Positions 5,311 to 29,607 of a stretch of 31,697 nt of DNA are shown here, piece after piece. The stretch covers positions 1 through 31,697 of the IMG/VR virus record IMGVR_UViG_3300042445_001439; one strand, written 5' to 3'. Numbering within the stretch: position 1 is the stretch's first letter; each line of letters starts with the position of its first letter. Source of the DNA: a virus. Made by a program: the position numbers and the translations under genes. The notes beneath the pieces were generated by a model, which was given only the letters and a program-made list of their open reading frames with translations, had not been told where the DNA came from and did no database searches.

Positions 5311-5328
5311 TATAATACGGAGTAGAAA

Positions 5329-12945: not shown

Positions 12946-12948
12946 ATA
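12941..12948 (+). promoter_or_regulatory. Late promoter-like motif (ACTAAATA) overlapping a stop codon
   Basis: ACTAAATA contains the TAA stop of the giant fibre gene (12943-12945) and precedes the ATG at 12966. The motif matches the CTAAATA form that also precedes gp18. The predicted +1 (about 12954) would fall inside the GGAG Shine-Dalgarno, so it is less convincing than the other sites. Confidence 0.35.
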
Positions 12949-12965
12949 CAACGGAGAAATAAATT

Positions 12966-13286
12966 ATGGCAACAGGAAGATTAGGATCAGCAGATCTAGC
13001 AGCAGCAACAAATACAACATTGTATACCGTGCCTGTTGATACATTTGCAGTAGTAACAGTTAGCGTATGCAATCGCGGCGCATCATCATGTACCGTTCAA
13101 CTCGCGGTGTGCGATACTGCAACACCAGGAGGAGACGAATATCTTGAATTTGATACATCATTATCAGCAAAAGGTGTTCTAGAACGTACTGGTGTTGTAA
13201 TAGATGCAGGTAAATTGCTGGTAGTTAGATCCAGTGCTACGAGCGTAAATGCTGTGGTCTACGGTATCGAAACAAGTACGGCTTAA
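12966..13286 (+). CDS. Small probable virion structural protein (106 aa)
   Basis: ATG at 12966 with GGAG at 12953-12956. The protein begins MATGRLGSADLAA and is mostly short beta strands (T-L-Y-T-V-P, F-A-V-V-T-V-S-V-C-N-R-G, V-Q-L-A-V), suggesting one small beta-sandwich domain. Small proteins of this look are common beside fibre genes in marine T4-like phages. Two cysteines lie in the central strand region (C-N-R-G-A-S-S-C). It sits 20 bases after the giant fibre and 15 before the S74 fibre, so it is probably co-expressed with them as a structural or accessory fibre protein. I cannot assign a specific role. Confidence 0.7.
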   Translation: MATGRLGSADLAAATNTTLYTVPVDTFAVVTVSVCNRGASSCTVQLAVCDTATPGGDEYLEFDTSLSAKGVLERTGVVIDAGKLLVVRSSATSVNAVVYGIETSTA

Positions 13287-13301
13287 TAAAAGGACGAGAT
13301 C

Positions 13302-14222
13302 ATGGCAAGAAAAGTATCAGGCGGACTAACAGGATCACCTAGCGTAGGAGCACTTAACATAGCTCCGACAGCTGTGGTTACCGCCGCAGACGATCAAAAT
13401 ATTACGCTAAGTCCTGCCGGAACTGGTATGCTAATGATAACCGCCAATGCGCAACTACAGGCACAGGCGGATTTAAGATTTGCAGACTCTGACAGTTCAA
13501 ACTGGGTAGCCTTCCAAGCTCCGGCAACTGTCAGTTCAAATATTACCTGGACTTTGCCCGCTGCCGACGGATCTACCGGCCAGTTCTTATCAACTAACTC
13601 CTCTGGTACGCTAAGTTGGGCTAGCGGAAGTTTATCGTTAACTGATCAAACAGCATCAGCGACTACTCATTATCCGTTGATCACCACAGCAACCAGTGGA
13701 ACAGTCACAGCAGCAAATACCAGTTCGACTAAATTTAGCTTTCAACCAAGCACTGGAACAATCACAGCCACAATTTTTAGCGGGTCAGCATCTGCCACAG
13801 CAACCACATTAACTACATCAAACTCAACATTTTACCCAACATTTGTCAGCAGTAATACTACCACAACTAATCAAGCACATCAAGTTGCCACAGCGTTTAC
13901 CTTTAATGCCAACACTGGAACGTTAACATCTACAATTGTTACAGCATCATCAGATGCAAGACTAAAAGAAAATATTATAACGATCGACGACGCATTAAAT
14001 AAAACATTAGCTCTTAGAGGCGTGATGTTTAATCGTATTGGTTCTTTGTCTAAAGAACTTGGAGTAATTGCACAAGAAGTTGAAGAAATTGTTCCGGAAC
14101 TAGTAGTAACTGGCGAAGATGGATTCAAGTCAGTGGCTTACGGTAATACTGTCGGACTGTTAATCGAGTCGATTAAAACATTAAATGATAAAATTGAAGA
14201 ACTAAAAGGGAGATTAGCATAA
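13302..14222 (+). CDS. Tail fibre protein with C-terminal S74 self-cleaving chaperone
   Basis: ATG with AAAAGGACGAG just upstream. The N-terminal 215 residues are low-complexity, Thr/Ser/Ala-rich beta-type fibre sequence (L-R-F-A-D-S-D-S-S-N-W-V-A-F-Q-A-P, T-G-T-L-S-W-A-S-G). The C-terminus, from about residue 216, is a Peptidase_S74 intramolecular chaperone: S-S-D-A-R-L-K-E-N-I, then G-V-I-A-Q-E-V-E-E-I-V-P-E, then a terminal helix. In this family the Ser/Lys pair (here S218 and K223) drives autocleavage before that Ser after the trimeric fibre has folded, so the mature fibre would be about 217 residues. At 306 aa it is short for an S74 fibre. It ends one base before the next start, and its last codons (AAAGGGAGA) supply that gene's Shine-Dalgarno. 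Confidence 0.85.
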   Translation: MARKVSGGLTGSPSVGALNIAPTAVVTAADDQNITLSPAGTGMLMITANAQLQAQADLRFADSDSSNWVAFQAPATVSSNITWTLPAADGSTGQFLSTNSSGTLSWASGSLSLTDQTASATTHYPLITTATSGTVTAANTSSTKFSFQPSTGTITATIFSGSASATATTLTTSNSTFYPTFVSSNTTTTNQAHQVATAFTFNANTGTLTSTIVTASSDARLKENIITIDDALNKTLALRGVMFNRIGSLSKELGVIAQEVEEIVPELVVTGEDGFKSVAYGNTVGLLIESIKTLNDKIEELKGRLA

Positions 14223-14223
14223 T

Positions 14224-14829
14224 ATGGCAACAAGATTAACCGGAACAGGGGTTCAATACGACGAAGTAACGTTTAATCAGTATTCAGAAGCTGTTACTTC
14301 AGTAACACAGACCGATGTCAACGGTATTATCAAAATAGTGTTTGGCAGTGCTACTACTGTTAATCAAGCTACCAGTGGCGGTAGCGGAACCAACGGAACG
14401 GTTGACGGCACTACCTGCGATATGGGAGTACCTACTAAGTCTACTAACTGGTATAGAGTTTACTTCCAAACATGTAGCGATGACAACGATGGTAGTATTT
14501 CTGGGAACGGCTTTAAATGCCAGCGATGGACTCCTAGTTCAGGATGGACCGATATACTGCGTCAAGGCGAGCATTCGAGTTATGACAACAACTACGGCGA
14601 TTGGTATAGAACCAATCATGTGATTTTTTGGGCTCCTGTGCATCAAACATATCCAACTGAACAGCATCAATTTAGAATCGGTTGGCACAAACACGACAGC
14701 GGTGCTATCAGGATTAACTCAAGCATTGGTAATGACCTAAGACGCAATGGATGGAATAATAATGCGTTTGAAGTATGGGAAGTAGACAGTGCTATAATCA
14801 CCACCACAGGAACTCTTTCGAGGTACTAA
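14224..14829 (+). CDS. Putative fibre-tip/adhesin protein, triplet copy 1 (201 aa)
   Basis: First of three tandem paralogues. It starts MATRLTGTGVQY, an opening typical of marine phage tail proteins. Shared body motifs: D-M-G-V-P-x-K-x-x-N-W-Y-R, a D-D acidic pair, T-P-S-S-G-W, D-Q-G-x-H or equivalent, G-D-x-Y, P-V-H-x-T-Y-P-T-x-x-H-x-F-R and S-I-G-x-D-L-R-R-x-G-W-N-N, ending in R-Y. It follows the S74 fibre by one base, so translation is probably coupled. Placement suggests a structural protein attached to the fibre or baseplate, possibly a receptor-binding tip. No enzyme signature is visible. Confidence 0.7.
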   Translation: MATRLTGTGVQYDEVTFNQYSEAVTSVTQTDVNGIIKIVFGSATTVNQATSGGSGTNGTVDGTTCDMGVPTKSTNWYRVYFQTCSDDNDGSISGNGFKCQRWTPSSGWTDILRQGEHSSYDNNYGDWYRTNHVIFWAPVHQTYPTEQHQFRIGWHKHDSGAIRINSSIGNDLRRNGWNNNAFEVWEVDSAIITTTGTLSRY

Positions 14830-14830
14830 T

Positions 14831-15394
14831 ATGCCAACAACAATGACAGGAACAGGGGTAACTTATACCTCAGGACAAGCACAAACTAGACCAAGAACTA
14901 TTGTTAAACACCGAATGACTGGGTTGACACAGGTTGATCAAGGGATACAATCGGGAGGTTGGGACCTTGTAACAGGGTCTGAAATCAACATGGGTGTGCC
15001 ACAAAAATCAAATAACTGGTATAGATTAGAATATTATACAGACGGTGACGATCAAGGCCCATCAAACGGTGGCTGGGGCTGTGCTGTCTATAGAAATACA
15101 CCCAGTACAGGCTGGGAACGAGTTCTAGATCAAGGGTGGCATGCACAATATGAATCTAACGCCGGCGACTTTTACACCACAGGAACTGGGTTATTCTTTG
15201 TACCAGTGCATCCAACATACCCCACACAAGTACACAGTTTTAGATTATATGCTCGACGTCATCCAGACGTGGGATTTCGTATCCAGTGTTCGATTGGTGC
15301 TGATTTGCGACAGGCAGGTTGGCAAAACGGAATGTTTGAATGCTATGAGTTAGACGGTGATCTTGTAACTGCAAATAATTTAACGAGGTACTAA
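14831..15394 (+). CDS. Putative fibre-tip/adhesin protein, triplet copy 2 (187 aa)
   Basis: Paralogue of the flanking genes: it shares N-M-G-V-P-Q-K-S-N-N-W-Y-R, T-P-S-T-G-W-E-R-V-L-D-Q-G-W-H, P-V-H-P-T-Y-P-T-Q-V-H-S-F-R and S-I-G-A-D-L-R-Q-A-G-W. The N-terminus (MPTTMTGTGVTY) keeps the L/M-T-G-T-G opening. The region between about residues 15 and 50 differs most between copies, the pattern expected if that part varies in specificity. The Shine-Dalgarno GAGG lies inside the last codons of copy 1. The role is inferred only from family and position. Confidence 0.7.
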   Translation: MPTTMTGTGVTYTSGQAQTRPRTIVKHRMTGLTQVDQGIQSGGWDLVTGSEINMGVPQKSNNWYRLEYYTDGDDQGPSNGGWGCAVYRNTPSTGWERVLDQGWHAQYESNAGDFYTTGTGLFFVPVHPTYPTQVHSFRLYARRHPDVGFRIQCSIGADLRQAGWQNGMFECYELDGDLVTANNLTRY

Positions 15395-15395
15395 T

Positions 15396-15962
15396 ATGCC
15401 AACATCATTAACTGGAAGTGGCTTTCGACATGCTAACGGTGTAACTCAAACCAGCATAGAGGGTATAGTGAAGATCGGATTCACTTCCTCAAATAGTGTT
15501 AATTTTAGTGCAGGAAGCGGATTTGGACCACAATGGCAATACGCAGGATCTGAAGTAGCAATGGGTGTTCCTGCTAATGCCAACAACTGGTATAGAATTC
15601 GCTACCAAACAATCTGCGATGATCAGGGCGGAGGCGCCCAGGGTACTGGTGCTGCGATTTATAGACACACACCAAGCTCGGGGTGGGTTCGAGTAATGGA
15701 CCAAGGACACCACGCAACACTTGAAAACGACACAGGCGACCTATACTGGATGGATCGTGTTGATTATCTAGTGCCAGTTCATCCATCATTCCCTACTCAA
15801 GCACATAGTTTTAGAATATATCATGCCAACTGGAACGGTCCAGCTAGAGTTCATTGCTCAATCGGTGGAGATCTAAGACGAAACGGTTGGAACAACTGCA
15901 TTTTAGAAGTATTTGAAATTGATAGATTAGCTATGAATTCAGGTACTCTTACAAGATATTAA
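15396..15962 (+). CDS. Putative fibre-tip/adhesin protein, triplet copy 3 (188 aa)
   Basis: Third tandem paralogue (MPTSLTGSGFRH...). It shares A-M-G-V-P-A-N-A-N-N-W-Y-R, T-P-S-S-G-W-V-R-V-M-D-Q-G-H-H, P-V-H-P-S-F-P-T-Q-A-H-S-F-R, S-I-G-G-D-L-R-R-N-G-W-N-N and the terminal L-T-R-Y. It is preceded by the same GAGGTACTAATATGCC junction as copy 2. Unlike copies 1 and 2, its Arg-Tyr end is written AGA TAT instead of AGG TAC, so it no longer provides a Shine-Dalgarno for a fourth copy. The next gene brings its own. Probably a structural or adhesive tail component. Confidence 0.7.
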   Translation: MPTSLTGSGFRHANGVTQTSIEGIVKIGFTSSNSVNFSAGSGFGPQWQYAGSEVAMGVPANANNWYRIRYQTICDDQGGGAQGTGAAIYRHTPSSGWVRVMDQGHHATLENDTGDLYWMDRVDYLVPVHPSFPTQAHSFRIYHANWNGPARVHCSIGGDLRRNGWNNCILEVFEIDRLAMNSGTLTRY

Positions 15963-15975
15963 ACAAGGACATAAC

Positions 15976-16428
15976 ATGAGAGACATAACACTTAGACACG
16001 ACAAACTTAAAGAGCCATTTGCGGGTCATGCTCTATCTGAACTTTTACAAGAACGTAATAGCAAGTGGGAGTGGAGCGGCTCATTTAGTTTTACCACCCA
16101 AGAAGGCTACGAAGAATTACGCTTCAATGATACTACTGCTAGTGAAGAAGAAAAAGAAATAGATCGCTGGACTGGATTACCAAAAAATCAATATAGTTAT
16201 GCAGAAGTTGCAGGCGAAGTACCAACCTATGCTGAAGTACTAGAAAAATTACAAGAATTAAAAGACGAGTATGCTGCATATGCTGGAAAACGCCAACGAG
16301 TATATCCGCGCATCAATGAACAATTGGATATGCTATACAAGGATATCGATTCTGGCCTGCTAGGTGAAGCGGCTAAAGAAAGTCAGTTCTACACCACGAT
16401 CAAGGAAATTAAGACAGCTAACTCATAA
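15976..16428 (+). CDS. Small phage protein with YPxIxEQLDMLY motif (150 aa)
   Basis: ATG with AAGGAC at 15965-15970. The N-terminal half is charged (M-R-D-I-T-L-R-H-D-K-L-K-E-P-F). The centre is a helix-rich stretch (residues 84-105, Y-A-E-V-L-E-K-L-Q-E-L-K-D-E-Y). Residues 106-124 carry R-Q-R-V-Y-P-R-I-N-E-Q-L-D-M-L-Y-K-D-I. That YPxIxxQLDMLYxDI element recurs in small proteins encoded next to tail genes in many marine phages. I recognise the motif but not a proven function; a tail-fibre assembly or chaperone role is a guess from position. It closes the plus-strand tail block, 28 bases before the first oxygenase gene. Confidence 0.6.
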   Translation: MRDITLRHDKLKEPFAGHALSELLQERNSKWEWSGSFSFTTQEGYEELRFNDTTASEEEKEIDRWTGLPKNQYSYAEVAGEVPTYAEVLEKLQELKDEYAAYAGKRQRVYPRINEQLDMLYKDIDSGLLGEAAKESQFYTTIKEIKTANS

Positions 16429-16456: not shown

Positions 16457-17077
16457 ATGGCCGAACAGACTCTTTATTCTCTTAAATTAAATTATTATCA
16501 CGATTTAAATTTGTCTAGACAATTACTTCCTATCACTAGGAAGTTTTTGTCTATGGACGACAAATTAACATATGAATGGAATTACAAAAATACATACACC
16601 GATGGTGTAGGTTTGGCCAACGAACCTGAATTAAAATTTTTTGTAGAGTATCTAACAGAACTTGCTTCTGAGTATATAAAAAAAGAAAACTTTAAACTAA
16701 AAAAATCTGTAAAATTTAGTATATCGATTTTTGCCAGCGAAATGAGAGAAGGCGATCAGCATTTATCGCATCAACATCCCGGATCAATTCTTTCAGGATT
16801 AATTTATCTTCAAGTCCCGCCAAACTCGGCAAAATTAGAATTTAAAAATCCAAGACATAATGTAATGTGGTTAAATTTTCTCGAACCAGCCACATTAAAA
16901 TCTTATGAATTACCAGTCATCCACGACAATAATGAATATAATATAATTGTAGAACCGTCTCCTGGATTATTGGTTATGTGGGAGTCTTGGGCAGTACATC
17001 GAGTACCAGTAAATCGTTCTCAAGAAGGAAGAATAACATTGGTGTTTAACATAGGAGTTGAAGATGCTAGCTACTAA
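16457..17077 (+). CDS. 2OG-Fe(II) oxygenase family protein A (HxH type, 206 aa)
   Basis: This protein has the pattern of the 2OG-FeII_Oxy_5 (TIGR02466-like) family: H105-Q-H107-P-G-S-x-x-S-G-x-x-Y-L, then F-K-N-P-R at about 129-133, then P-G-x-L-V-M-W, H181 and R192 in E-G-R-I-T-L-V-F-N. By family, the two N-terminal ligands and H181 would hold Fe(II), and R192 would hold 2-oxoglutarate. The substrate is unknown. No Shine-Dalgarno is visible before the ATG; instead a perfect hairpin and a late promoter-like motif precede it. Its end overlaps the next gene by 14 bases, so the two are probably translationally coupled. Confidence 0.8.
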   Translation: MAEQTLYSLKLNYYHDLNLSRQLLPITRKFLSMDDKLTYEWNYKNTYTDGVGLANEPELKFFVEYLTELASEYIKKENFKLKKSVKFSISIFASEMREGDQHLSHQHPGSILSGLIYLQVPPNSAKLEFKNPRHNVMWLNFLEPATLKSYELPVIHDNNEYNIIVEPSPGLLVMWESWAVHRVPVNRSQEGRITLVFNIGVEDASY

Positions 17078-17813
17078 CAGTATTATTGATACTGACAAAA
17101 TTTTTGTATTTGATGATGTAGCACCTGAGTGGTTGTACGAATCTTTTCAGCACAGGATAAGAGAAGCCCAGCGTTGGAAATACGGTATGGCAGCTACAAG
17201 ATCAGACTATGGTAGATTTTTTGTTTTATGGGTAGCTCAGGCAGGAACACATCGAGGTAATAGAGGACCGTTTGCAGGAGATGTAGATAATGTTGCAACA
17301 TATTGCCACGACCTGTGGGTGGACAAATTACTGCCTACAATAATTCCTGACGGCCAGATTGTTAACATTCATCGAGTGCATTTTAATGGTCAATTTCCAA
17401 CGCAGGATAAATTAGCTATCCACATGGATTGGGATATGAAAGACATGTGGACTCTGTTATATTATCTTGACGGAGAAGATGGCGATACAGTATTCTATGA
17501 AAATCCTGTAGTAGATGATTCAGGAGAAATGCACCCACCCGAAGAAGTGTATAGAGTAAAATTTAGAAAGAATAGAATGGTATTTTTTCCTTCTTTTTAT
17601 TGGCACGCCGGAGAAAATCCTAAAGAAGGATTTAGAATTAGTCTAGCATTCAACTACACGCTAAACAGTAGATGTAAAATAAATCAAGAATTGCGAAAAG
17701 ACAGAGGAATAGTAGAGCCGACGCTTGGAGAACCAGACCTGTCTGATTTTTTGTCTGAATTAGATCATATACATAAACTTGAAGAAATGCACAAAAAAAT
17801 GCAAAAAAAATAA
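17064..17813 (+). CDS. 2OG-Fe(II) oxygenase family protein B (HxD type, 249 aa)
   Basis: The ATG at 17064 is chosen over an upstream TTG (17058) because AGGAG at 17053-17057 is correctly spaced for it. The double-stranded beta-helix pattern is clear: H120-M-D122 with the following W-T-L-L-Y-Y-L-D-G-E-D-G-D-T-V-F-Y, then F-F-P-S-F-Y-W-H181 and R191-I-S-L-A-F-N. These are the Fe(II) ligands and the 2OG-binding Arg of canonical 2OG oxygenases. The length suits a single-domain enzyme with a C-terminal charged helix (K-L-E-E-M-H-K-K-M). The substrate is unknown. It is the last plus-strand gene before eight minus-strand genes; its stop is 9 bases from the opposing stop, and no terminator is visible. 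Confidence 0.82.
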   Translation: MLATNSIIDTDKIFVFDDVAPEWLYESFQHRIREAQRWKYGMAATRSDYGRFFVLWVAQAGTHRGNRGPFAGDVDNVATYCHDLWVDKLLPTIIPDGQIVNIHRVHFNGQFPTQDKLAIHMDWDMKDMWTLLYYLDGEDGDTVFYENPVVDDSGEMHPPEEVYRVKFRKNRMVFFPSFYWHAGENPKEGFRISLAFNYTLNSRCKINQELRKDRGIVEPTLGEPDLSDFLSELDHIHKLEEMHKKMQKK

Positions 17814-17822
17814 TCTTATTGG

Positions 17823-18488
17823 TTAGACTATGTAATTGATATTAAATGCAACACTGATACGTTCCTCGTCGGTAGTGTTGATACTTGTTCCGTGTTGCAA
17901 CCAAGCCGGAAATAAAATAATATCCCCGTCGGTTGGAATTAATTCTAAAGTTTGCGGCGACTGAGCGCCTTCTGGAAATCCGCAATTATACAGCATTAAA
18001 TTTGGATTATTAAAATTGATCCCCCCTTGGTCTGCGCTAACTCTAAAATAATACGACCCGGCAATTGTATACCCGGGATGCGAATGGTAATCGTGTCGTA
18101 CTCCTTTTTCTGCAATATTAATCCAAGAATTCATTATTTTAAAATTGGCATTTAATAAATTTGGAACTACTGCATCTTTAGTTTGCGATAACGCACTCCA
18201 ATTCACTAAAGCTAAGTATCGACCTAGTGCTTCGTAAATTCTAGCTTCTAAATTAACAAGCCCGTATTCTCCGATTAAATCATCAGAAATAAAATATGCT
18301 TTTTCGTGATCTCCTCTTGCCTGCTTACGAGCACCTGCATCTTTATAGATATACGATACATGAGATAAATCGTCGGTTTCTTTAATAGTCTTCAAGGCTG
18401 CTTGTATTTCTAACTGAACAGGATCGTAGTTTTCTAAGGTGGCTGGATCTTTGTAAATAGGAGTTGGAAAAAGATTGTATAATGGCAT
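17823..18488 (-). CDS. 2OG-Fe(II) oxygenase family protein C (HxH type, 221 aa)
   Basis: Member of the TIGR02466-like (2OG-FeII_Oxy_5) family. The N-terminus L-F-P-T-P-I-Y is the usual family opening. It is followed by S-W-I-N at 121-124, H135-S-H137-P-G-Y-x-x-A-G-S-Y-Y-F-R, F-N-N-P-N at 159-163, D-G-D-I-I-L-F-P-A-W-L-x-H199 and R210-I-S-V-A-F-N. All predicted iron and 2OG ligands are present. It is a close paralogue of the gene at 19549-20256, with a 41-base stretch identical between them (18400-18440 here). It is the last gene of the minus-strand run. The substrate is unknown. Confidence 0.83.
   Translation of the reverse strand: MPLYNLFPTPIYKDPATLENYDPVQLEIQAALKTIKETDDLSHVSYIYKDAGARKQARGDHEKAYFISDDLIGEYGLVNLEARIYEALGRYLALVNWSALSQTKDAVVPNLLNANFKIMNSWINIAEKGVRHDYHSHPGYTIAGSYYFRVSADQGGINFNNPNLMLYNCGFPEGAQSPQTLELIPTDGDIILFPAWLQHGTSINTTDEERISVAFNINYIV
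18400..18440. repeat. 41-bp identical direct repeat, copy in oxygenase gene C
   Basis: Bases 18400-18440 are identical to 20165-20205. The match continues for five more bases after one mismatch. Both copies encode the same N-terminal stretch (L-E-N-Y-D-P-V-Q-L-E-I-Q-A), while the rest of the two genes has diverged clearly. This suggests recent recombination or conversion between the two paralogues. Confidence 0.85.
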
Positions 18489-18498
18489 GATGTATTCT

Positions 18499-19008
18499 CT
18501 ATAAAAGGGGGAATAGGCCTAGACATCCTGTTCCCATAACAGGATCAGTAGTTATATCGTAGCCTATAGTTATTCGATAATCGTCAAATGGCTTCACAGT
18601 CTTAACGCGATGCAACCGTTTACCTGGACCAAAATATATTTGGCCTACTTTATTTTCTATACTGTAATTTTCAAATTCTGTAATAGTGAGCTTTGGATCG
18701 ATTGATATGTACCCGTGGTAATCCCAAGAATGATTGTGCCAGTCAAGTACTTGATCCTGAGTATGATAGTTAATCCATGCCTGCATCCAAAGAGATCCTG
18801 TGGGCAATTCTGTTCTAATAATGTCTCTAAGCTCTTTAAATAAATTATAGAAATATATAGAGCCAGCTGTGGCTGAAAAAATGTTGTATTTGTAATAGCT
18901 TTTAGTTAGATCTGTATTTGAATTTTGCAATTTTACAAAATTACAGTGTTCGATAAACGATTGTTGATTATCAACGACGTAAGACGATTGAAATAGTTTA
19001 TAATCCAC
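18499..19008 (-). CDS. 2OG-Fe(II) oxygenase-like protein D (diverged, 169 aa)
   Basis: This is the least typical of the eight. It keeps D-W-H91-N-H93-S-W-D-Y-H-G-Y-I-S-I as the metal strand, G-Q-I-Y-F-G-P-G-K-R-L-H133-R, and D-D-Y-R145-I-T-I-G-Y. That is the order and spacing expected for Fe(II) ligands plus the 2OG-binding Arg in a cupin-like barrel. It lacks the N-terminal LFPTP element and is shorter than its neighbours. A cupin of another function is possible. The start overlaps the upstream gene (18998-19552) by 11 bases, indicating translational coupling. Confidence 0.6.
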   Translation of the reverse strand: MDYKLFQSSYVVDNQQSFIEHCNFVKLQNSNTDLTKSYYKYNIFSATAGSIYFYNLFKELRDIIRTELPTGSLWMQAWINYHTQDQVLDWHNHSWDYHGYISIDPKLTITEFENYSIENKVGQIYFGPGKRLHRVKTVKPFDDYRITIGYDITTDPVMGTGCLGLFPLL

Positions 19009-19552
19009 AGTTAGTTAACTCTGTTATATTTTCTTTATAAAAATTTAAATTCAATACTAGCCGTGCATACACATCAGTGCAATTTGTTCCAGAATGGCGC
19101 AATTTTGATGGAAATATTACACACCTATTTTTAATACTTGCTACTTTAGTACCATCTTCAAACAGTGTGTATCCATCGTTGCTATTCACATAATAAATTG
19201 CTGTCCAGGAATCTGGTCTTGGCGAATGATGATCAATGTGAAACCCGTGCTCTATAATTTGAGAATTGCAAGGGTTTAAATTTAATTTAATTCTAACCCA
19301 CTCCGATGCATTAATTTTTTTAACTAATGTATCTAGTAAATGAAATGTATTTTTGTTTATCATCACCTGTGATTTAGACTCTAAAAATACATGACATAAT
19401 TGAAAATTATATTTAGGATCGCATCTAGGAGATAACGGATCATCGTCGTATACTGCATTAGACCCTACCCATGTAACTTGCGGATTTGTTAATGCCCTAG
19501 ATAATATTTCACTTTCGATGTATGGCAAAAAGTCGTCGATTACAGTAATCAT
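18998..19552 (-). CDS. 2OG-Fe(II) oxygenase family protein E (HxD type, 184 aa)
   Basis: It begins MITVIDDFLP, a common opening for prolyl-hydroxylase-like proteins in phages (short strand, then D-x-F-L). Key residues: H105-I-D107-H-H-S, W-T-A-I-Y-Y-V-N at about 116-123, L-F-E-D-G, C-V-I-F-P-S-K-L-R-H153-S-G and R164-L-V-L-N-L-N-F. It has an intact HxD...H...R set and single-domain size. Its ATG overlaps the TGA of gene F by four bases (ATGA), and its end overlaps gene D. The substrate is not predictable. Confidence 0.78.
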   Translation of the reverse strand: MITVIDDFLPYIESEILSRALTNPQVTWVGSNAVYDDDPLSPRCDPKYNFQLCHVFLESKSQVMINKNTFHLLDTLVKKINASEWVRIKLNLNPCNSQIIEHGFHIDHHSPRPDSWTAIYYVNSNDGYTLFEDGTKVASIKNRCVIFPSKLRHSGTNCTDVYARLVLNLNFYKENITELTNCGL

Positions 19553-20256
19553 TTAGTATTTCTTAAGCCTTTTAACGAAAGTTCTTTACCATGCTGCGGT
19601 ATGTGTGTTCCTTTATTTAATCCCAATACTCGATCCTCTACTATATTAATTAGATCAATATTGAATGCAACAGCAATACGATCTTCAGCAGTAGTATTTT
19701 TTTTAGTACTATGAACCAACCAACTTGGAAATAGTATAATATCACCATCGTCTGGAACCACGTCTGTGCGTTGAGGACACATTCTACCGCCTGGAAACTC
19801 GCAGGCAAACATCATTGGGTTAGGATTATTAAATGTAAGAGCCCCTTGCTTTTCGCTAACTCTAAAGTAATATGAGCCCGATATAGCATAACCTGGATGG
19901 CAATGTACATCATGAAAATCTCCAATACCTGCAATATTGATCCATGAGTTTTTAATAACCACTCGTTGGTCGCTGGTAAACATTCCCAACCAGCCTGACT
20001 TATCTAAGTATTCGTTGGCCGCCTCAATTATTCTATTTTTTAAATTAACACAGTTAAATTTTTCAATAAAGTCATAAGTTTTGTCAGCTAGTCGGATATC
20101 TGTATCTTTATAAAGATAAGAAGTAGACGAGAAATCGGTTGTTGATTGAATCAAATTCCATGCCGCTTGTATTTCTAACTGAACAGGATCGTAGTTTTCT
20201 AAGGTAGCTGGTACTCTTAGTACAGGGGTTGGGAACAATGAATACATCTCACTCAT
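19549..20256 (-). CDS. 2OG-Fe(II) oxygenase family protein F (HxH type, 235 aa)
   Basis: Paralogue of gene C: L-F-P-T-P-V-L, then A-T-L-E-N-Y-D-P-V-Q-L-E-I-Q-A-A, then N-S-W-I-N, H118-C-H120-P-G-Y-A-I-S-G-S-Y-Y-F-R, D-G-D-I-I-L-F-P-S-W-L-V-H182 and R193-I-A-V-A-F-N. The iron and 2OG ligands are intact. It carries a C-terminal extension of about 30 residues not present in gene C. The start (M1 at 20256, or M4) overlaps the end of the glycosyltransferase-like gene by up to 8 bases. A recent local duplication or gene-conversion event with gene C is evident at DNA level. The substrate is unknown. Confidence 0.83.
   Translation of the reverse strand: MSEMYSLFPTPVLRVPATLENYDPVQLEIQAAWNLIQSTTDFSSTSYLYKDTDIRLADKTYDFIEKFNCVNLKNRIIEAANEYLDKSGWLGMFTSDQRVVIKNSWINIAGIGDFHDVHCHPGYAISGSYYFRVSEKQGALTFNNPNPMMFACEFPGGRMCPQRTDVVPDDGDIILFPSWLVHSTKKNTTAEDRIAVAFNIDLINIVEDRVLGLNKGTHIPQHGKELSLKGLRNTK
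20165..20205. repeat. 41-bp identical direct repeat, copy in oxygenase gene F
   Basis: Second copy of the stretch at 18400-18440, in the same orientation and reading frame, about 1.77 kb away. Recombination between the copies would delete genes D and E and fuse F to C. Confidence 0.85.
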
Positions 20257-21283
20257 TTATATTTTCTATCCTAGTAATTACTCGAGAAATTAACTCACTA
20301 TATTGACTGCATTGATATGCGATAGCCGGGACCCCTATTTTATTTTTCATAATATTGATTGCAACTTGTTTATTCTTTTTTAACTTTGGTTTAATTATTT
20401 CATACAATTTATTAAAATCTAAAACTTTTAATCGTGATAATTCTTTAACTATTAATTCTGCTCTTATTTTAAAATCTAATTCGCTATCAAACGAATAATC
20501 TATAATTTCTGTATATAATTCAAACCCTTGGTTTTCTAATTCTCTATGGAAAAACGGAGCCGCATACGAAATAAACGGTTTCTCTGAAAGTATAGGATGC
20601 CAAGTTTTTTCAGTAATGAATATTTGATCAATATATGTTTCTGGTACTAATATTAAAAATGAGTAATTAAATTCTTTAGGTAATTTGTGTTGATGTAATA
20701 CCCTATTTTGAGAAGTTGGATCATAATGTTCATCAAACGATACTTTTTTAGGCTCCCAGTACTGCCAATTATAAACACCCTCCTCCCAACTGACTGGTTG
20801 TTGATGCCATGAGTATATTCCAATATCTGTTAGTGAATCTCGATGCAGCAAGTCCATTAGTAAACATCTATGGTATTTTGCCTTGGTGTTCATAGATAAA
20901 AATAATTTTGAAAATATGTTGTTGTTAGACAGAGATTCGATATCTAATTTATCATATGCAACAAATAGAAAAAAATTAGACCAAGTATGTACATTCCCAA
21001 GTATTAGATAGTCAGCACCAATTGTTGGGTCGTTAGATCCTATAATAATATCGACTGTTTCTAGTTTTTTTAAATTTTGTACAAACTGAGGATAATGTCC
21101 AAATGAAATTGGCCATCCGTCGCTGTCTAAGGGTATCATTTTTTCTATTAACATCTTGGAGGGATAAGATTCTTCAGCAGAACACAGGATTAAAGAATTT
21201 CTTGAATCGGTTGATAATTCTCTAACATATTTTTCTAAAGGACTAGTTTTAGAATCGTCCCACACATGCCAACAGTGCTTCAT
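20249..21283 (-). CDS. Glycosyltransferase-like protein (344 aa)
   Basis: The C-terminal half carries I-T-E-K-T-W-H-P-I-L-S-E-K-P-F-I-S-Y followed by L-E-N-Q-G-F-E-L-Y and I-D-Y-S-F-D. This 'EKTW.PI...KPFI...G....L...GF' arrangement is what I associate with the nucleotide-sugar-binding half of GT10 (fucosyltransferase)-like phage proteins. The N-terminal half (I-G-S-N-D-P-T-I-G-A-D-Y-L) is not recognised. If correct, it would transfer a sugar to a protein or envelope acceptor in the infected cell. It lies in the middle of the oxygenase operon, overlapping genes on both sides (4 and 8 bases), so it is co-translated with them. It is markedly AT-rich. No signal peptide or membrane segment is seen. 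Confidence 0.5.
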   Translation of the reverse strand: MKHCWHVWDDSKTSPLEKYVRELSTDSRNSLILCSAEESYPSKMLIEKMIPLDSDGWPISFGHYPQFVQNLKKLETVDIIIGSNDPTIGADYLILGNVHTWSNFFLFVAYDKLDIESLSNNNIFSKLFLSMNTKAKYHRCLLMDLLHRDSLTDIGIYSWHQQPVSWEEGVYNWQYWEPKKVSFDEHYDPTSQNRVLHQHKLPKEFNYSFLILVPETYIDQIFITEKTWHPILSEKPFISYAAPFFHRELENQGFELYTEIIDYSFDSELDFKIRAELIVKELSRLKVLDFNKLYEIIKPKLKKNKQVAINIMKNKIGVPAIAYQCSQYSELISRVITRIENINE

Positions 21284-22047
21284 TTAGATTTCTTCCAAAA
21301 TTTACTAAACGGACATCTGTCTGATTTGGGTTCGTCTTTAATCATGCCCCAGGATTTATTGGGTAAAAAATATTTGAGTAATGAATGATTTTGCGATTTT
21401 CTTTTGACGGTGTCGCTTGGATTTTTTCTTTCTAGATTAAAATCAACACCATGAGCATTTACATCTTTAAATCTAACAACACCCAACGGAGTTCCGCGTT
21501 TTAACACTGTTGATTCGTTGTAAAATTTAAAGGCAAACAGAGAAGGTCGCAACCATCTACTAAACGGATACTCGGCCGAAATTAATTCCATTCCGTGGGT
21601 TCTAAGCAGATCGGGGGCCGAAATAATTTCTACCCACAGATGTTTATTCTTAGATTCATTCCAAAAAACATAATGCTGCCGAATCTGTCCAACGGCAACG
21701 CCGTGATACGGCATTGTGTGATGAATTTGTGGACCATTGGGGATAAACGGAGCAATTAATCCAGCTTCGACACCTTCGTCGAATACACAATGTTCAAACG
21801 AATCTCTATGGATTTCGCCGCTTTCTTTTTTATAATTAATTTCAATATCTTTTTGAGAAAATATCACATAACAATTTTTATAATATTTTTGCCAAGCCGG
21901 ACATTTCCAATAAACATGTTTATAGTGATATTCTTTATAATGTTCAAGATACGGCATTGGCGGTATAAACACTTCTTCTTCAAACAGCGGATGTTCATAC
22001 GGTGTTGAATATCCTTCCATCTTTGGTGCAAAGAAAATTTTCTCCAT
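21280..22047 (-). CDS. Unknown phage protein in the oxygenase operon (255 aa)
   Basis: The ATG at 22047 (MEKIFFAPKMEGY) is preferred over an in-frame TTG at 22062 because it lies just two bases after the upstream stop. Aromatic- and His-rich: Y-L-E-H-Y-K-E-Y-H-Y-K-H-V-Y-W-K-C-P-A-W near residues 34-53, I-H-H-T-M-P-Y-H-G-V in the middle, and F-A-F-K-F-Y-N with P-L-G-V-V-R-F later. The K-C-P-A...Y-x-I and F-K-F-x-N...P-x-G features faintly recall a phage protein family of unknown function (DUF6065-like), but I cannot confirm it. The HH/H residues could bind metal. The operon position suggests it works with the oxygenases. It ends in a basic tail (F-W-K-K-S-K). Confidence 0.55.
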   Translation of the reverse strand: MEKIFFAPKMEGYSTPYEHPLFEEEVFIPPMPYLEHYKEYHYKHVYWKCPAWQKYYKNCYVIFSQKDIEINYKKESGEIHRDSFEHCVFDEGVEAGLIAPFIPNGPQIHHTMPYHGVAVGQIRQHYVFWNESKNKHLWVEIISAPDLLRTHGMELISAEYPFSRWLRPSLFAFKFYNESTVLKRGTPLGVVRFKDVNAHGVDFNLERKNPSDTVKRKSQNHSLLKYFLPNKSWGMIKDEPKSDRCPFSKFWKKSK

Positions 22048-22049
22048 AA

Positions 22050-22628
22050 TTACCAACCCCAACTGACTAAACTGTATCTTGTTCCTGCTAACACTTCTGT
22101 AACTTTGTGAGGATATAAAAAAGAACTAGGAAAAATAATAATATCTCCAACCGTAGTTTCAATTTCGTAATCATCAAAAAACGTTAATTTTCCGCCTCGA
22201 TAATCATTGTTTAAAATTCCTATTACTGATAGTACTGGAATCCCTTTCTGAGTACCATCAAATAATGAATGAATATGATCAAAATGTTGTCTCATAAGTG
22301 TATTAGCATTGTAACGATTTAATCTAATACCGCAACATTGTGTCACTATTCTAGAAAAATCTGTGTTGGGGCTAAATGATTGACACAAAGTTCGATATTC
22401 TTTAAATCCTGAAAGCACGTAATCCATTAACAGTTGTGAAGTGCTATGATCTGGATACAACACTTCTAATTCTTTTTCGTTGTGCGATATACTATTGTTT
22501 TCAGTTTGATCGTACCAAGAATGTGTGATCCATTCTAACTCGTTAGTTTGATTAATAACAGTCTGACAAGTCTCTAGAGGAATTGAATTTTTTACAAAGA
22601 TAAAATCTGATAATTTCATATTCTGCAT
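22050..22628 (-). CDS. Prolyl 4-hydroxylase-like 2OG-Fe(II) oxygenase G (192 aa)
   Basis: This is the most canonical prolyl-4-hydroxylase-like member: R-L-N-R-Y at about 102-106, then M-R-Q-H115-F-D117-H, S-V-I-G-I-L-N-N-D-Y-R-G-G-K-L-T-F-F, G-D-I-I-I-F-P-S-S-F, P-H174-K-V-T and G-T-R184-Y-S-L-V-S-W. Both the H-x-D...H iron triad and the 2OG Arg are intact. By family it couples O2 and 2-oxoglutarate to hydroxylation of a peptide or small molecule. Its ATG overlaps the stop of gene H by one base (TAATG). It lies close to, and diverges from, a fibre gene with collagen-like triplets, a plausible but unproven substrate. Confidence 0.85.
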   Translation of the reverse strand: MQNMKLSDFIFVKNSIPLETCQTVINQTNELEWITHSWYDQTENNSISHNEKELEVLYPDHSTSQLLMDYVLSGFKEYRTLCQSFSPNTDFSRIVTQCCGIRLNRYNANTLMRQHFDHIHSLFDGTQKGIPVLSVIGILNNDYRGGKLTFFDDYEIETTVGDIIIFPSSFLYPHKVTEVLAGTRYSLVSWGW

Positions 22629-23245
22629 TAGTAAGTCATCTCAGTTAAACCGTTGCCGTTAACTAGACCTTTGGGCATTATGTTTAAACTCAAAGTATAT
22701 CTCAATCCAACTAAGTTAGGTTGCGCATCAACATAGTGTTCTAACCACGAAGGAAATAATACAAGGGTTCCGGTTTCTGAAGGGCACGGCCAAACATTTT
22801 GCCCAAACTTAGTAAAGCTATTCACTGAAATTCCGTTTCTTATTTGAAGTCTCGGATCTGTAAAAAATGTTGGACTAGGATTATCGGAAATGTAATATAT
22901 TCCAGATATAAATGAATTCGGATGAGTATGAGCTGTATGCTCAGTGTCTTTGTTACCCCGGTTAACCCACGACAACACTGGTTTTAGACTATCGCATTGA
23001 TACTTAAACGATACGCGATAATCCTCAATGCATTGACTAATCCACTCGAACAGTTCTGCAAATGCTGGATTTTTTTCTAAATGATTATCAAGAGTTTGCT
23101 CGGGAATGTACGGCGGCGGAGTATAGGCCATTGTTTCTAACACTTCGATTAGCTTGGGATTTATTTTTGAAAAATTTGGATTTTCGTACCCTACAATAAT
23201 CGTTGGAAATATTTCAGCAACTTTTTTTTCCATTGGTGCTTGCAT
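22628..23245 (-). CDS. 2OG-Fe(II) oxygenase family protein H (HxH type, 205 aa)
   Basis: TIGR02466-like: I-F-P-T-I-I near the N-terminus, S-W-V-N-R at 92-96, A-H106-T-H108-P-N-S-F-I-S-G-I-Y-Y-I, F-F-T-D-P-R at 127-132, G-T-L-V-L-F-P-S-W-L-E-H170 and R182-Y-T-L-S-L-N. The ligand set is complete. First gene of the minus-strand operon. The start ATG is at 23245 (a second possible ATG is M5), with a weak AAGG upstream and a late promoter-like motif at 23273-23280. The substrate is unknown. Confidence 0.82.
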   Translation of the reverse strand: MQAPMEKKVAEIFPTIIVGYENPNFSKINPKLIEVLETMAYTPPPYIPEQTLDNHLEKNPAFAELFEWISQCIEDYRVSFKYQCDSLKPVLSWVNRGNKDTEHTAHTHPNSFISGIYYISDNPSPTFFTDPRLQIRNGISVNSFTKFGQNVWPCPSETGTLVLFPSWLEHYVDAQPNLVGLRYTLSLNIMPKGLVNGNGLTEMTY

Positions 23246-23336: not shown

Positions 23337-25376
23337 GTGGCCAAGATACCTGTTTTAGATGCAATAAGGATCATACCTAGAGATGCTGATTTTTTAAATA
23401 GAAAATCTGGTATTCGTGGCGAAATATTTTATGATCGCACTGCAAATTCTTTAAGATTATATGACGGCACTAATACTGGCGGGATAAATCTTGCCAACGC
23501 AAATCTTACAAATGTATCAAACTCAGATTTTCTTGCCAAAGCTAATTCAGCAGGATTTAGCGGCGGCGTACAGACGGGAGTAGCAGGTAAAATAGCCTAC
23601 TATCCGTCGAACGGCTCTCAAGTCAACGATCTTACAGCACTGACTTGGCTAGATGACAGCACAAATACCCTGATATTGTCTGGAGTAATAGACATTACGG
23701 GTCAAAAAAATCGTATTAGATTCCATTGGGACACATATGCTGATCTTATAGCAGAAGTATCTCCTGTGGATTATCACGGTATGATAGCCCATGTGCATGA
23801 CACAGGTAAACTATACTATGCTCATGCCGGAGCATGGGTGCCTGTGGCCGCAGAAAGCAGCCTTCCTAACACATTCAGTACCATTGCAATAGCTGGGCAG
23901 ACATCAGTAACTGCAGACACAACTGCAGATACTCTTACCCTTGTAGCTGGCACAGGTATTACACTGACTACGAATGCTGGCACAGATACTATTACCATTA
24001 CAGGCACAGCTAGCACAGGCAACATAACTTTTGTTGCCAACACCATAGACAGTGCAGATAGCACAGCTATCACAGTAACTCCCGCAGTGAATTTTGAATC
24101 CGATGTTGTGGTAGGCAATGAAATTGTATTCGCAGACGGTACAAGACAAGCTACTTCTGCTGTTGGTGTACCAGGACCACAAGGTGAACAAGGTCCGCCG
24201 GGGGCTTCGGGAGCAGGTACAGGAGATGTTCTTAGCAGCGGTGGCGGATATATCAACAACGCTATCGTACGCTATGATGGTACCACAGGTACTATTATTC
24301 AAAACAGTTCTGCAACCATATCAGATGCTGGACTACTTACAGCTACCAACTTCAGCGGCGGTGGCGCATTGCTCACTACCTTAAATGCCACTGAATTAAC
24401 TTCGGGCACTATACCGGATGGTAGATTCCCAGCTACACTACCTGCAGTAAGCGGAGTGAATCTCACAGCACTACCTGCAACATTGCCAGCTGCTAGTGGT
24501 GTTAATCTCACTGCTTTGAATGCTAGCCAACTTACCAGCGGCACTGTGCCTGTTTTAAGATTAGGAGCATCAGGTACTAGAGATGCTACTACATACCTGA
24601 GAGGCGATAATACATGGGCCACTGTGTCGGGTGGCGGCGCAGCATCAGATAGTTTTGCTACTATAGCTGTAGCTGGACAGTCTAATGTAGTGGCTGACTC
24701 GGCCACTGACACATTAACATTAGTAGCAGGCTCAAACATAACCATAACCACAGACGCCGGCACAGACACTATAACTATTGCTGCTGCCGGCGGCGGCACG
24801 GCGTCAGACAGCTTTGCTACCATAGCAGTAGCTGGCCAATCAAACGTTGTGGCAGATTCGGCCACTGACACTCTTACTATAGTCGCAGGCACAGGAATTT
24901 TAATTACCACCGATGCCAGCACAGACACGATTACTATCGCTAACTCATCTACATTAGTTAATGAATTTACTGATTTGGGTGATTCTGCCGGATTGACTGT
25001 GGATAAATTTTATCTTCCAGCGATTACTATGTTGACAGTTTCTAATAATAGTGCAGCAGCTTACAGATTTGATCAATACGGTTCTACCGACAATCCTACG
25101 ATATATGCCATCAACGGAACTACGATTGCATTTAATTTAATTGCCACTGGGCATCCGTTTATTATACAGAATGGCGCTGGAGTAAATTATAATACTGGGT
25201 TGACCCATGTCAGTACCGCAGGTGTAGTGTCTACTGGATCGTCTGCACAGGGAAAAGATTCTGGAACATTATATTGGAAGATACCTATAGATATCAGCGG
25301 CGGATATCGATATCAATGCGGCTCTCATGCTCCTATGGTCGGTAGTATTACAGTTAAAGCGTTTGGTACTCTTTAA
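23337..25376 (+). CDS. Tail fibre-like protein with collagen-like run and cupredoxin-like tip (679 aa)
   Basis: GTG start (MAKIPVLDAIRII) with AAGGA upstream. The N-terminal part, R-G-E-I-F-Y-D-R-T-A-N-S-L-R-L-Y-D-G-T, is typical of phage fibres. Residues about 180-222, 440-483 and 493-535 hold three copies of an F-A-T-I-A-V-A-G-Q-S... beta repeat. Residues 277-294 are six Gly-X-Y triplets (GVP GPQ GEQ GPP GAS GAG), preceded by F-A-D-G-T-R-Q. The last 110 residues look like a cupredoxin: G-H606-P-F-I-I, then Y-R-Y-Q-C661-G-S-H664-A-P-M667-V-G-S-I-T-V, matching the His/Cys/His/Met set of type-1 copper sites. It is probably trimeric and virion-attached. Its stop overlaps the opposing stop of the 92-aa gene in the tetramer TTAA. 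Confidence 0.8.
   Translation: MAKIPVLDAIRIIPRDADFLNRKSGIRGEIFYDRTANSLRLYDGTNTGGINLANANLTNVSNSDFLAKANSAGFSGGVQTGVAGKIAYYPSNGSQVNDLTALTWLDDSTNTLILSGVIDITGQKNRIRFHWDTYADLIAEVSPVDYHGMIAHVHDTGKLYYAHAGAWVPVAAESSLPNTFSTIAIAGQTSVTADTTADTLTLVAGTGITLTTNAGTDTITITGTASTGNITFVANTIDSADSTAITVTPAVNFESDVVVGNEIVFADGTRQATSAVGVPGPQGEQGPPGASGAGTGDVLSSGGGYINNAIVRYDGTTGTIIQNSSATISDAGLLTATNFSGGGALLTTLNATELTSGTIPDGRFPATLPAVSGVNLTALPATLPAASGVNLTALNASQLTSGTVPVLRLGASGTRDATTYLRGDNTWATVSGGGAASDSFATIAVAGQSNVVADSATDTLTLVAGSNITITTDAGTDTITIAAAGGGTASDSFATIAVAGQSNVVADSATDTLTIVAGTGILITTDASTDTITIANSSTLVNEFTDLGDSAGLTVDKFYLPAITMLTVSNNSAAAYRFDQYGSTDNPTIYAINGTTIAFNLIATGHPFIIQNGAGVNYNTGLTHVSTAGVVSTGSSAQGKDSGTLYWKIPIDISGGYRYQCGSHAPMVGSITVKAFGTL
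24654..24941 (+). repeat. Tandem coding repeat of about 53 codons in the fibre gene
   Basis: Two adjacent copies start at 24654 and 24813 (period 159 bases), each coding F-A-T-I-A-V-A-G-Q-S-N-V-V-A-D-S-A-T-D-T and a following T-D-T-I-T-I strand. A third, more diverged copy lies at about 23874-24005. They probably form repeating beta shaft segments. Confidence 0.75.
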
Positions 25377-26032: not shown

Positions 26033-27535
26033 TTAGGGAATCAATACAAAATTCCAGAATCCTGGCGCATACTCTCCTTCGAACGCCTTGAGCCACTGTA
26101 GGCCATCCCATCGATATTGTATTCCCGTTCTGAGATTCTGCATATATGTTGGATTCACTCCTGTGTCTGGATCCCATATTTCAATCCATGTTGTACCATT
26201 CCACTCGATTATGGAATTAGCCATTATAATTGGATCGGTTCCATTTTTGTCTCGCCATGCAGCTGGGCCTCGATATGGATCTTTAGAACTTCCGTCAGAC
26301 GGGTCGTTGGGATATTTTATAAATCCACCTCGATTCTGACTAGTATTAACATCGTCGAGCATTAGATATCTAATGCCCAACGGAATGTTGTCATGCCCTC
26401 CGTAGGTGTCGACGGGATTATATTTGTACGGATCGATGATGGCATCGACTGTGCCTCTAGAAGCTATGCCGGCTATTGAACTAGCGATCAACGTGTTTGA
26501 CGGGATAGTATCTTGATCAAAAGTAACAACAATCACTGTTGGATCTACAGGATTGATGGTAAATGTTCCTACCATGTAATATTCACTGGCCTGTTTAAAA
26601 TGTACTTGGCTAGTGCCAGACACATAGCTTCCTTGTATATCTAATATAGTCATCCAATCCACAGCCGCACCAGCTTTGAATTCTTTCTGATCGATGCCCA
26701 ATGCCAACACAGCTTGATCTGGATTAACTAATGTTAGATCGTAGTCGTAAGGCTGACCATTTTGAGATTTGAATAACAATACTCTATATCTATTTGTAGT
26801 GATATCAAAACTGCCTTTGGCTTTATTATAAACCAGGTCTTCTAGAGTCTGAAGTTCTCCAGTTTCTGAAAATACATTTGATATAATACTTTGAACTACT
26901 CCTAATTTCTTTACCTTAGCTGGTGGTGTGATCCATATGGGCATGGCAAACTCCATCGAACATATGTCTATCTCTGATTCTCCGCTAGGCACTGTTCTAG
27001 AGCTAAAGTTTATTGTGGTTAAATCTAACACACTTAGGCTAGTCCAGTCTATGTAATTATCTGTGGTCTGCAATTCTAAACTGGGGTTGAACAATACCAA
27101 TATTTGTTCTAGAAGTTGCAATTTTTGATCAGTGTTTGACGTCCAGAGGTCCGCTTTCATGCTGAGTTTGAACGGAGTAGGCATCAATCTTTCTACGGTA
27201 TAATTCCCGCCTTGATTGTTTTCGTATTCTCTACCACCCTGACCGTCATCAGAATATCGTCTTTCCCTAATGTTTACCTTACTGACAAAAGTGGCATCGG
27301 ACATCCGAGACATGTCCATCTCCAATCCAGAAATATAACAGGCCATTCTAGGAACGTTCATCATTTTATTTTCGGAATTATCTTTGATGATGCTGGCGAC
27401 CTGTCGAGTCATGTCTCCGTACAGTACAGGAACATGTTTTTCTTCACCGTCGCCTGCTTTATATTTGAATCCGATGAATACTCGCATGAATTGAGTTACA
27501 TATCGGCGTATTTGGCCATCATAAAAATAATCCAT
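26033..27535 (-). CDS. 15: Tail sheath stabiliser and completion protein, gp15-like (500 aa)
   Basis: The N-terminus M-D-Y-F-Y-D-G-Q-I-R-R-Y-V-T-Q-F-M parallels T4 gp15 (M-x-x-Y-F-Y-...-R-R-Y). It is followed by V-P-V-L-Y-G, V-E-R-L-M-P-T-P-F-K-L at about 114-124 and D-Q-K-L-Q-L-L-E-Q-I-L-V-L-F-N-P at 136-151, the most conserved gp15 elements, then W-I-T-P-P. In T4, gp15 forms a hexamer capping the finished tail and joining it to the neck. T4 gp15 is about 270 residues; this one is 500, with an extra C-terminal half ending R-W-D-G-L-Q-W-L-K-A-F-E-G-E-Y-A-P-G-F-W. Its ATG overlaps the gp14 stop by one base (TAATG), so they are coupled, fitting their joint role. Confidence 0.85.
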   Translation of the reverse strand: MDYFYDGQIRRYVTQFMRVFIGFKYKAGDGEEKHVPVLYGDMTRQVASIIKDNSENKMMNVPRMACYISGLEMDMSRMSDATFVSKVNIRERRYSDDGQGGREYENNQGGNYTVERLMPTPFKLSMKADLWTSNTDQKLQLLEQILVLFNPSLELQTTDNYIDWTSLSVLDLTTINFSSRTVPSGESEIDICSMEFAMPIWITPPAKVKKLGVVQSIISNVFSETGELQTLEDLVYNKAKGSFDITTNRYRVLLFKSQNGQPYDYDLTLVNPDQAVLALGIDQKEFKAGAAVDWMTILDIQGSYVSGTSQVHFKQASEYYMVGTFTINPVDPTVIVVTFDQDTIPSNTLIASSIAGIASRGTVDAIIDPYKYNPVDTYGGHDNIPLGIRYLMLDDVNTSQNRGGFIKYPNDPSDGSSKDPYRGPAAWRDKNGTDPIIMANSIIEWNGTTWIEIWDPDTGVNPTYMQNLRTGIQYRWDGLQWLKAFEGEYAPGFWNFVLIP

Positions 27536-28818: not shown

Positions 28819-28825
28819 AGTCATA

Positions 28826-28833
28826 TATTTACC
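28826..28833 (-). promoter_or_regulatory. Late promoter-like motif for gp14 (GGTAAATA on minus)
   Basis: GGTAAATA on the minus strand ends seven bases before the gp14 ATG at 28818. T4 spacing predicts +1 near 28820, i.e. a two-base leader. No Shine-Dalgarno is visible. Confidence 0.5.
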
Positions 28834-28838
28834 GCTAC

Positions 28839-28846
28839 GATAAATA
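28839..28846 (+). promoter_or_regulatory. Late promoter-like motif for gp13 (GATAAATA)
   Basis: GATAAATA is followed by CTAGC and the gp13 ATG at 28852. It resembles the extended T4 late consensus TATAAATACTATT. T4 spacing puts +1 on the A of the ATG. It sits back to back with the gp14 motif, only five bases apart. Confidence 0.6.
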
Positions 28847-28851
28847 CTAGC

Positions 28852-29607
28852 ATGAGCCAAAACGAACAATCAAAACAAGCGGTCTACGATTATTGCAAAG
28901 CCATGCTAGGCGACGGAATGATTGATGTAGAATTAGATCCTATACATTACGAAACAGCATTAAACAGAGCTTTGGCAGTTTTTCGCCAGCGAAGCGACAA
29001 TGCTGTGGAAGAAAGTTATATATTTCTAAATCTATTAGTAGATACTAACGAATATATATTACCTGAAGAAATCATCCAGATACGACAACTCCACAGGAGA
29101 AGCATTGGATCTCGAACTGGTGGCGGCAGCGGCGGTACAGTGTTTGAACCGTTTAATCTAGCTTATACAAACACATACTTGCTAAGTTCGACAAATATGG
29201 GTGGATTGGCAACTTATGAATTGTTTGCAGGATATCAAGAACTTGTAGGTAAAATGTTCGGATCCTTTATCAATTACACATGGAATTCTCAAAGTAGAAA
29301 ACTAGTGATACATCAACGTCCTAGATCCGAAGAAAGTGTAATGATCCACGCCTACAATCGAAGACCTGATTTTGCACTCATAACAGATACCTATGCAGGA
29401 CAGTGGATCAAAGATTATTCATTGGCAAACTGTAAGATGATACTAGGACAAGCCCGTGAAAAATTTGCTCAAATTGCAGGCCCGGGTGGCGGAAGCAGCT
29501 TAAACGGCGCTGCAATGAAATCTGAAGCACAGGCCGAAATGGACAAATTAATGGAAGATCTCAAAACTGGTGTTACTACGCAAGGTTGGGGTTGGGTAAT
29601 AGGTTGA
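28852..29607 (+). CDS. 13: Neck protein, gp13-like (251 aa)
   Basis: The ATG at 28852 (MSQNEQSKQAVYDYCKAMLG) has no Shine-Dalgarno. Recognised as the marine T4-like gp13 by V-E-L-D-P-I-H-Y-E-T-A-L-N-R-A-L, E-E-S-Y-I-F-L, the central Y-T-W-N-S-Q-S-R-K-L-V-I-H and the C-terminal G-P-G-G-G-S-S-L-N-G with a following helix (M-K-S-E-A-Q-A-E-M-D-K-L-M-E-D-L). gp13 with gp14 builds the neck that seals the filled head and accepts the tail. In T4 genes 13, 14 and 15 run in one direction; here 13 faces away from 14-15. The TGA stop is part of the -35 box of the dNMP kinase promoter. Confidence 0.8.
   Translation: MSQNEQSKQAVYDYCKAMLGDGMIDVELDPIHYETALNRALAVFRQRSDNAVEESYIFLNLLVDTNEYILPEEIIQIRQLHRRSIGSRTGGGSGGTVFEPFNLAYTNTYLLSSTNMGGLATYELFAGYQELVGKMFGSFINYTWNSQSRKLVIHQRPRSEESVMIHAYNRRPDFALITDTYAGQWIKDYSLANCKMILGQAREKFAQIAGPGGGSSLNGAAMKSEAQAEMDKLMEDLKTGVTTQGWGWVIG

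Follow-up and report, generated by a model that had tools for sequence, protein, structure and literature searches.

Fe(II)/2-oxoglutarate oxygenase genes arrayed beside fibre-tip genes in a marine phage fragment: a possible fibre-tip modification module

Few auxiliary genes recur in marine phages as often as those for Fe(II)/2-oxoglutarate (2OG) oxygenases, and published proposals for their role invoke DNA repair, nitrogen signalling and general host metabolism. Sullivan et al. found 1-5 such genes in most of 16 cyanophages (PMC3037559), and larger sets have since been published, with 10 in S-CREM1 (PMC9964418), 24 in S-SCSM1 (PMC9602691) and nine, scattered, in S-SZBM1 (PMC9146016). In PMC7029224, the fibre-to-neck region of such phages is named the host recognition cluster (HRC). 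Here we analyse the IMG/VR virus fragment IMGVR_UViG_3300042445_001439 (the whole 31.7-kb stretch, 31,697 nt, is called the window), in which positions 16457-23245 hold eight oxygenase-family genes (A-H) and two others directly after a block of tail-fibre genes. An earlier note on this DNA implied that such an array is rare, and the published sets in S-SCSM1 and S-CREM1 show otherwise: marine cyanophages have been found before to carry oxygenase arrays, and the one in the window is not very unusual. It is the neighbourhood of the array that is under-appreciated, and it is testable.

Eight members of one oxygenase superfamily

Judged from their sequences, all eight predicted proteins belong to the Fe(II)/2OG oxygenase superfamily, with the metal ligands and the Arg in order. 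The open reading frames (ORFs) reported in the earlier note are all present, and its ligand order and its count of five HxH and three HxD proteins hold up. The HxH...H...R proteins are A (16457-17077, + strand; HQH105/H181/R), C (17823-18488, - strand; HSH135/H199/R), D (18499-19008, -; HNH91/H133/R), F (19549-20256, -; HCH118/H182/R) and H (22628-23245, -; HTH106/H170/R), and the HxD...H...R proteins are B (17058-17813, +, with an ATG at 17064; HMD122/H183/R), E (18998-19552, -; HID105/H153/R) and G (22050-22628, -; HFD115/H174/R). Of 498 unrelated ORFs of like size, 114 (23%) also contain a loose version of the motif. The motif alone is thus weak, and the case for eight oxygenases from the motif only was dropped; the claim is carried by profiles.

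Seven of the eight are supported directly by Pfam or strongly by PHROG; D is the weakest. The profile searches suggested earlier gave PF13759 scores of 73.9 (A), 72.9 (C), 70.8 (F) and 61.1 bits (H), all above the cut-off of 27 bits, which also applies to PF13640; for the latter, B (33.8) and G (44.9) passed, and E (25.2) fell narrowly below. TIGR02466, with a cut-off of 62.5 bits, was passed by C (75.2) and F (85.9), with A (62.2) and H (56.2) below it. Iterative hidden Markov models (HMMs) seeded from each of A-H recovered nearly identical sets of 227-237 ORFs among the 3207 from 24 records, and A-H thus form one superfamily. All are small single-domain proteins; F is homologous to structures 2rg4 and 3bvc, and G, which also matches phrog_61, is homologous to 3dkq and resembles PKHD hydroxylases. 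The description of the eight as "different" was slightly overstated, since C and F are 52% identical, likely by local duplication to judge from their similarity; other pairs are at most 33% identical.

D has no Pfam match, and its PHROG matches are to phrog_2696 (E 4e-38) and weakly to phrog_81 (E 3e-5). Its AlphaFold2 model, made from a four-sequence alignment, is a double-stranded beta-helix (predicted local distance difference test, pLDDT, 82; predicted template modelling score, pTM, 0.81), the fold expected of the superfamily; it was modelled for D only, and the rest of A-H were placed by homology. In the PDB, the model is matched best by 6ax7 (lysyl hydroxylase L230 of mimivirus) and by 3bvc and 2rg4, both of the PF13759 type. 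E matches phrog_274 (E 2e-45), and its HMM converges with those of the other oxygenases. Both phrog_274 and RefSeq label E and its relatives (for example, L027:5001-5498) "DNA endonuclease V" (denV), and profiles point instead to the 2OG oxygenase superfamily; E has no match to a T4 DenV-type nuclease/glycosylase profile, and its notable Pfam matches are all 2OG-type. The names "ferrochelatase" (phrog_3531) and "minor coat protein" (phrog_1644), given to proteins like these, also look like mislabels.

The earlier note described all ten genes as interlocked by start/stop overlaps. Genes do abut or overlap within A-B and within C-H, but these form two convergent blocks, on the + and - strands respectively, with 9 bp between the stops of B and C. 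Overlaps therefore cannot join all ten genes, and the array is not one operon.

A neighbourhood shared across phage lineages

Directly upstream of A lie three phrog_8195 tip-like paralogues ("f"; 14224-15962, +) and a gene for a protein of about 150 aa ("a", phrog_8886; 15976-16428, +), and between F and G lies X, which encodes a 260-aa protein (phrog_17480; 21280-22062, -). All recur with oxygenases in relatives, and the set a-A-B-C-X is found in the relatives G006 and G008-G010. Identity to the window across fff-a-A-B-C-X is 54-78% for G006 (54% for A) and 36-63% for G008-G010; gene by gene, the latter values are 50-57% (f), 52-53% (a), 43% (A), 36-37% (B), 62-63% (C) and 48-49% (X). The backbones tell a different story. 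G008-G010 have Kyanoviridae-like backbones (neck and other structural genes of G009 and G010 are 40-77% identical to those of Kyanoviridae isolates), and the neck genes of the window are only 21-25% identical to theirs or undetected in them. The neck adaptor of the window (28852-29607, +) and the adjacent virion structural protein (27535-28869, -) instead best match jumbo phages of the T4 superfamily, namely Atu_ph07 (43% and 38%), PA5oct and Phosso, with Kyanoviridae absent among the best matches listed for both. The array had been discussed with marine T4-like phages in mind, but the virion backbone is not that of the Kyanoviridae; these genes point to a marine relative of the Atu_ph07/Phosso/PA5oct lineage with a cyanophage-type fibre module. 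Because the fff-a-A-B-C-X genes are similar while the neck genes barely match, the block seems to move as a unit, and from these comparisons the tip genes and oxygenases appear to have been exchanged together between distant phage lineages. The array also has a lower G+C content than its flanking genes (0.31-0.38 versus 0.39-0.47).

A similar arrangement is seen in cultured phages. By iterative profiles, HTVC008M has about 21 oxygenase genes, S-WAM1 16, and Syn9, ACG-2014b and Sf-CH1a 13 each. In deposited annotation, runs of these genes adjoin fibre genes in S-CREM1, Syn9, S-RIM44, S-WAM1, HTVC008M and S-SCSM1, partly masked by the three misleading names given above, and in HTVC008M, Sf-CH1a and S-RIM44 the runs sit between fibres and neck genes. 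Adjacency of oxygenase genes exceeded random placement among like-sized genes (p<0.03) in 9 of the 14 isolates tested (HTVC008M, S-SCSM1, S-CREM1, S-H38, ACG-2014b, Sf-CH1a, Syn9, S-RIM44 and S-CAM3) and was not significant in P-SSM3, Syn19, S-PM2, P-SSM7 and S-WAM1 (p 0.08). A recurrent order consists of a giant fibre ORF, two to three tip or assembly genes, a single-family gene of about 150-165 aa, zero to two flavin halogenases and an oxygenase run; it is seen in the window, G002, G003, G006, G008-G010, Syn9, S-RIM44, S-WAM1 and S-CREM1. The tip genes are of the phrog_8195 type in the window, G006, G008-G010 and P-SSM3, and of a glycine-rich type in Syn9, S-RIM44, S-WAM1, S-CREM1, G002 and G003.

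The window has no halogenase, but halogenase-family ORFs elsewhere lay at most three genes from an oxygenase gene in 8/14 cases against 2.7 expected (14 isolates), a result that is supportive only, because these genes guided the choice of several isolates and fragments of one gene may count twice. The contig IMGVR_UViG_3300017788_000239 (L013) packs three flavin-dependent halogenase-family genes (1591-3201, 11364-12917 and 12895-14403), a JmjC gene and about 10 oxygenases into 15 kb beside fibre-tip genes; its halogenase best matches VirX1 (PDB 6qgm, E 1e-203), which comes from Syn10 (PMC8407142). In Syn10 itself, the VirX1-type gene and another halogenase gene are flanked by fibre-tip genes on one side and about nine oxygenase-family genes on the other (L188:6997-10102; Syn10 113996-117101), a context that suggests a native substrate for VirX1. 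A DUF6065-like protein (L013:3173-3976, L123:14055-14843) adjoins the halogenase in G002, G003, S-CREM1, Syn9 and G007-G010 and is possibly its partner; homology of X to this protein was considered and not established (hhalign probability 29%).

Possible roles of the array

The reading that we tentatively favour, as something short of probable, is that fibre-tip genes followed by the oxygenase array make up a module of the HRC in a marine myophage of the jumbo type. Ahead of virion assembly, the array enzymes would post-translationally modify, mainly by hydroxylation, fibre-tip or adhesin proteins of the phage itself, and the modification would alter receptor binding or stability. Probably the enzymes would differ in the residues or tips they act on and would not form one linear pathway. 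We infer catalysis, protein substrates and the fibre target from the fold family, the ligands, the conserved neighbourhood and the apparent co-movement with tip genes. The seeming co-mobility of array and tip genes hints that the enzymes modify fibres, and this target is further favoured because protein hydroxylases are among the nearest characterized relatives in fold or sequence and because the companions are tip genes and, elsewhere, halogenases. For S-SCSM1, the virion-proteome summary lists no oxygenase among virion proteins (PMC9602691), which agrees with enzymes acting before assembly and is not a test of it. A broader version, which we consider somewhat unlikely, is that tip genes and a changing complement of 2OG oxygenases, joined in many relatives by flavin halogenases including VirX1, form a mobile system of marine myophages that chemically modifies the phages' adhesins; turnover of the enzymes would tune receptor binding, and the native substrate of VirX1 would be a fibre protein. 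A proposal that these arrays modify fibres was not found in the literature covered, which excluded subscription papers and preprints.

Several points weigh against fibre-tip modification. Five of A-H have HxH rather than HxD/E, so even 2OG turnover is assumed for them. Across isolates, oxygenase genes were not clearly closer than chance to large ORFs (at least 900 aa), and for this reason conserved order and co-movement are used as evidence of the fibre link. The isolates in the neighbour tests were partly picked via these same gene families, and in some phages the families are scattered or lie beside replication genes (P-SSM3 and Syn19; the uvsY region of HTVC008M). Collagen-like Gly-X-Y repeats in the window, itself a fragment, are limited to a single stretch of 5 triplets, within 23337-25376, and no stretch reaches 6, leaving collagen-type prolyl hydroxylation without an obvious target; it was rejected as the main job of the array. 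The main uncertainty is that passive linkage in a recombination hot spot could give the same picture without functional coupling.

In its full form, the hot-spot explanation holds that the HRC gathers short oxygenase genes as independent auxiliary genes with their own host substrates and no joint function. This is a serious rival, doubtful but quite conceivable: oxygenase membership and order turn over between relatives, further copies are scattered elsewhere in the same genomes, S-SZBM1 carries its nine oxygenase genes dispersed (PMC9146016), and PMC7029224 describes the region as hypervariable. It sits less easily with adjacency beyond chance in nine isolates, with a-A-B-C-X on two backbones and with the halogenase neighbourhood. 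The same observations bear on the "cassette" of the earlier note, which would have been undercut by relatives carrying these genes singly and scattered. For most relatives the genes are associated, as a-A-B-C-X and the isolate adjacency indicate, and so the conserved association stands; a single pathway is not borne out, given the turnover of membership and the two convergent blocks.

The array might instead decorate host surface polysaccharide or produce a small secondary metabolite, with superinfection exclusion or shielding of the infected cell as conceivable purposes. A related cyanophage cluster of a halogenase and 2OG hydroxylases has been interpreted in this way (PMC7824862), prnA has been speculatively tied to antibiotic protection (PMC2984593, PMC9964418), and pelagimyophage HRCs contain glycosyltransferases (PMC7029224). 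We regard this as distinctly unlikely here, because Pfam and PHROG reveal no recognizable glycosyltransferase, methyltransferase, carbamoyltransferase or sugar-nucleotide gene in the array, in which 20249-21283 is unassigned, and because the PKHD and lysyl-hydroxylase-like relatives suggest peptide substrates. Very improbable is a role in DNA repair or in adjusting 2OG/nitrogen signalling in the infected cell, as in older proposals for cyanophage 2OG genes (PMC3037559). Some copies do adjoin recombination genes (HTVC008M), but the ten proteins of the array gave no AlkB or TET/JBP match in the Pfam search, the array adjoins fibre genes rather than repair genes, and eight divergent enzymes are unnecessary to draw down 2OG.

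If arrays do modify fibre tips, their number, turnover and position would be explained, VirX1-type halogenases would gain a native role, and chemical modification of adhesins would count as a new dimension of phage host range. Such arrays are already present in cultured phages.

The surrounding locus and known systems

A tail-fibre block of 16 kb on the + strand (100-16428, by PHROG and Pfam matches) opens the window and includes two giant fibre ORFs (100-5292 and 5329-12945), a further ORF (12966-13286) and an S74-chaperone tip gene (13302-14222) before the f and a genes. After the array come a fibre/baseplate connector (phrog_677; 23337-25376, +), which contains the short collagen-like stretch, and neck and tail-completion genes; the placement of the array between fibre genes in the earlier note is thus supported. 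Tail and neck genes at 26033-29607, beginning with a tail-sheath/stabilizer-like gene (26033-27535, -), form the other border of the fibre locus. The second non-oxygenase gene between F and G encodes a 344-aa protein (20249-21283, -) with no match in Pfam, PHROG (E<0.01), PDB, phage or genome searches, its only relatives being in a near-identical sibling contig of the window; its G+C content, 0.31, is the lowest in the array. A megablast search of phage records with 24 kb of the window gave no match.

Among known systems, the collagen lysyl hydroxylase L230 of Mimivirus is a virus-encoded hydroxylase and, of the folds in the PDB, the one that the D model matches best, but identity to D is about 12% over the aligned part, and the window fragment has no collagen substrate of comparable length. 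In the HRC of pelagi- and cyanomyophages, too, fibre genes adjoin neck genes, within a hypervariable island; the available text of PMC7029224 emphasizes glycosyltransferases and describes no oxygenase arrays. The locus of the iodinating halogenase VirX1 in Syn10 differs from the window in having a halogenase, but relatives of VirX1 lie in fibre-"a"-halogenase-oxygenase runs that include a homologue of D. There is also a close likeness to the cyanophage and pelagiphage sets of S-SCSM1, S-CREM1, Syn9, S-RIM44 and HTVC008M. The window departs from these in its jumbo-type backbone with Atu_ph07/PA5oct-like neck genes, its lack of a halogenase and its inverted C-H block with two unassigned genes, but it shares with them the families PF13759, PF13640, phrog_274 and phrog_2696, whose genes stand side by side in stretches of 4 to about 9, several of which adjoin fibre genes.

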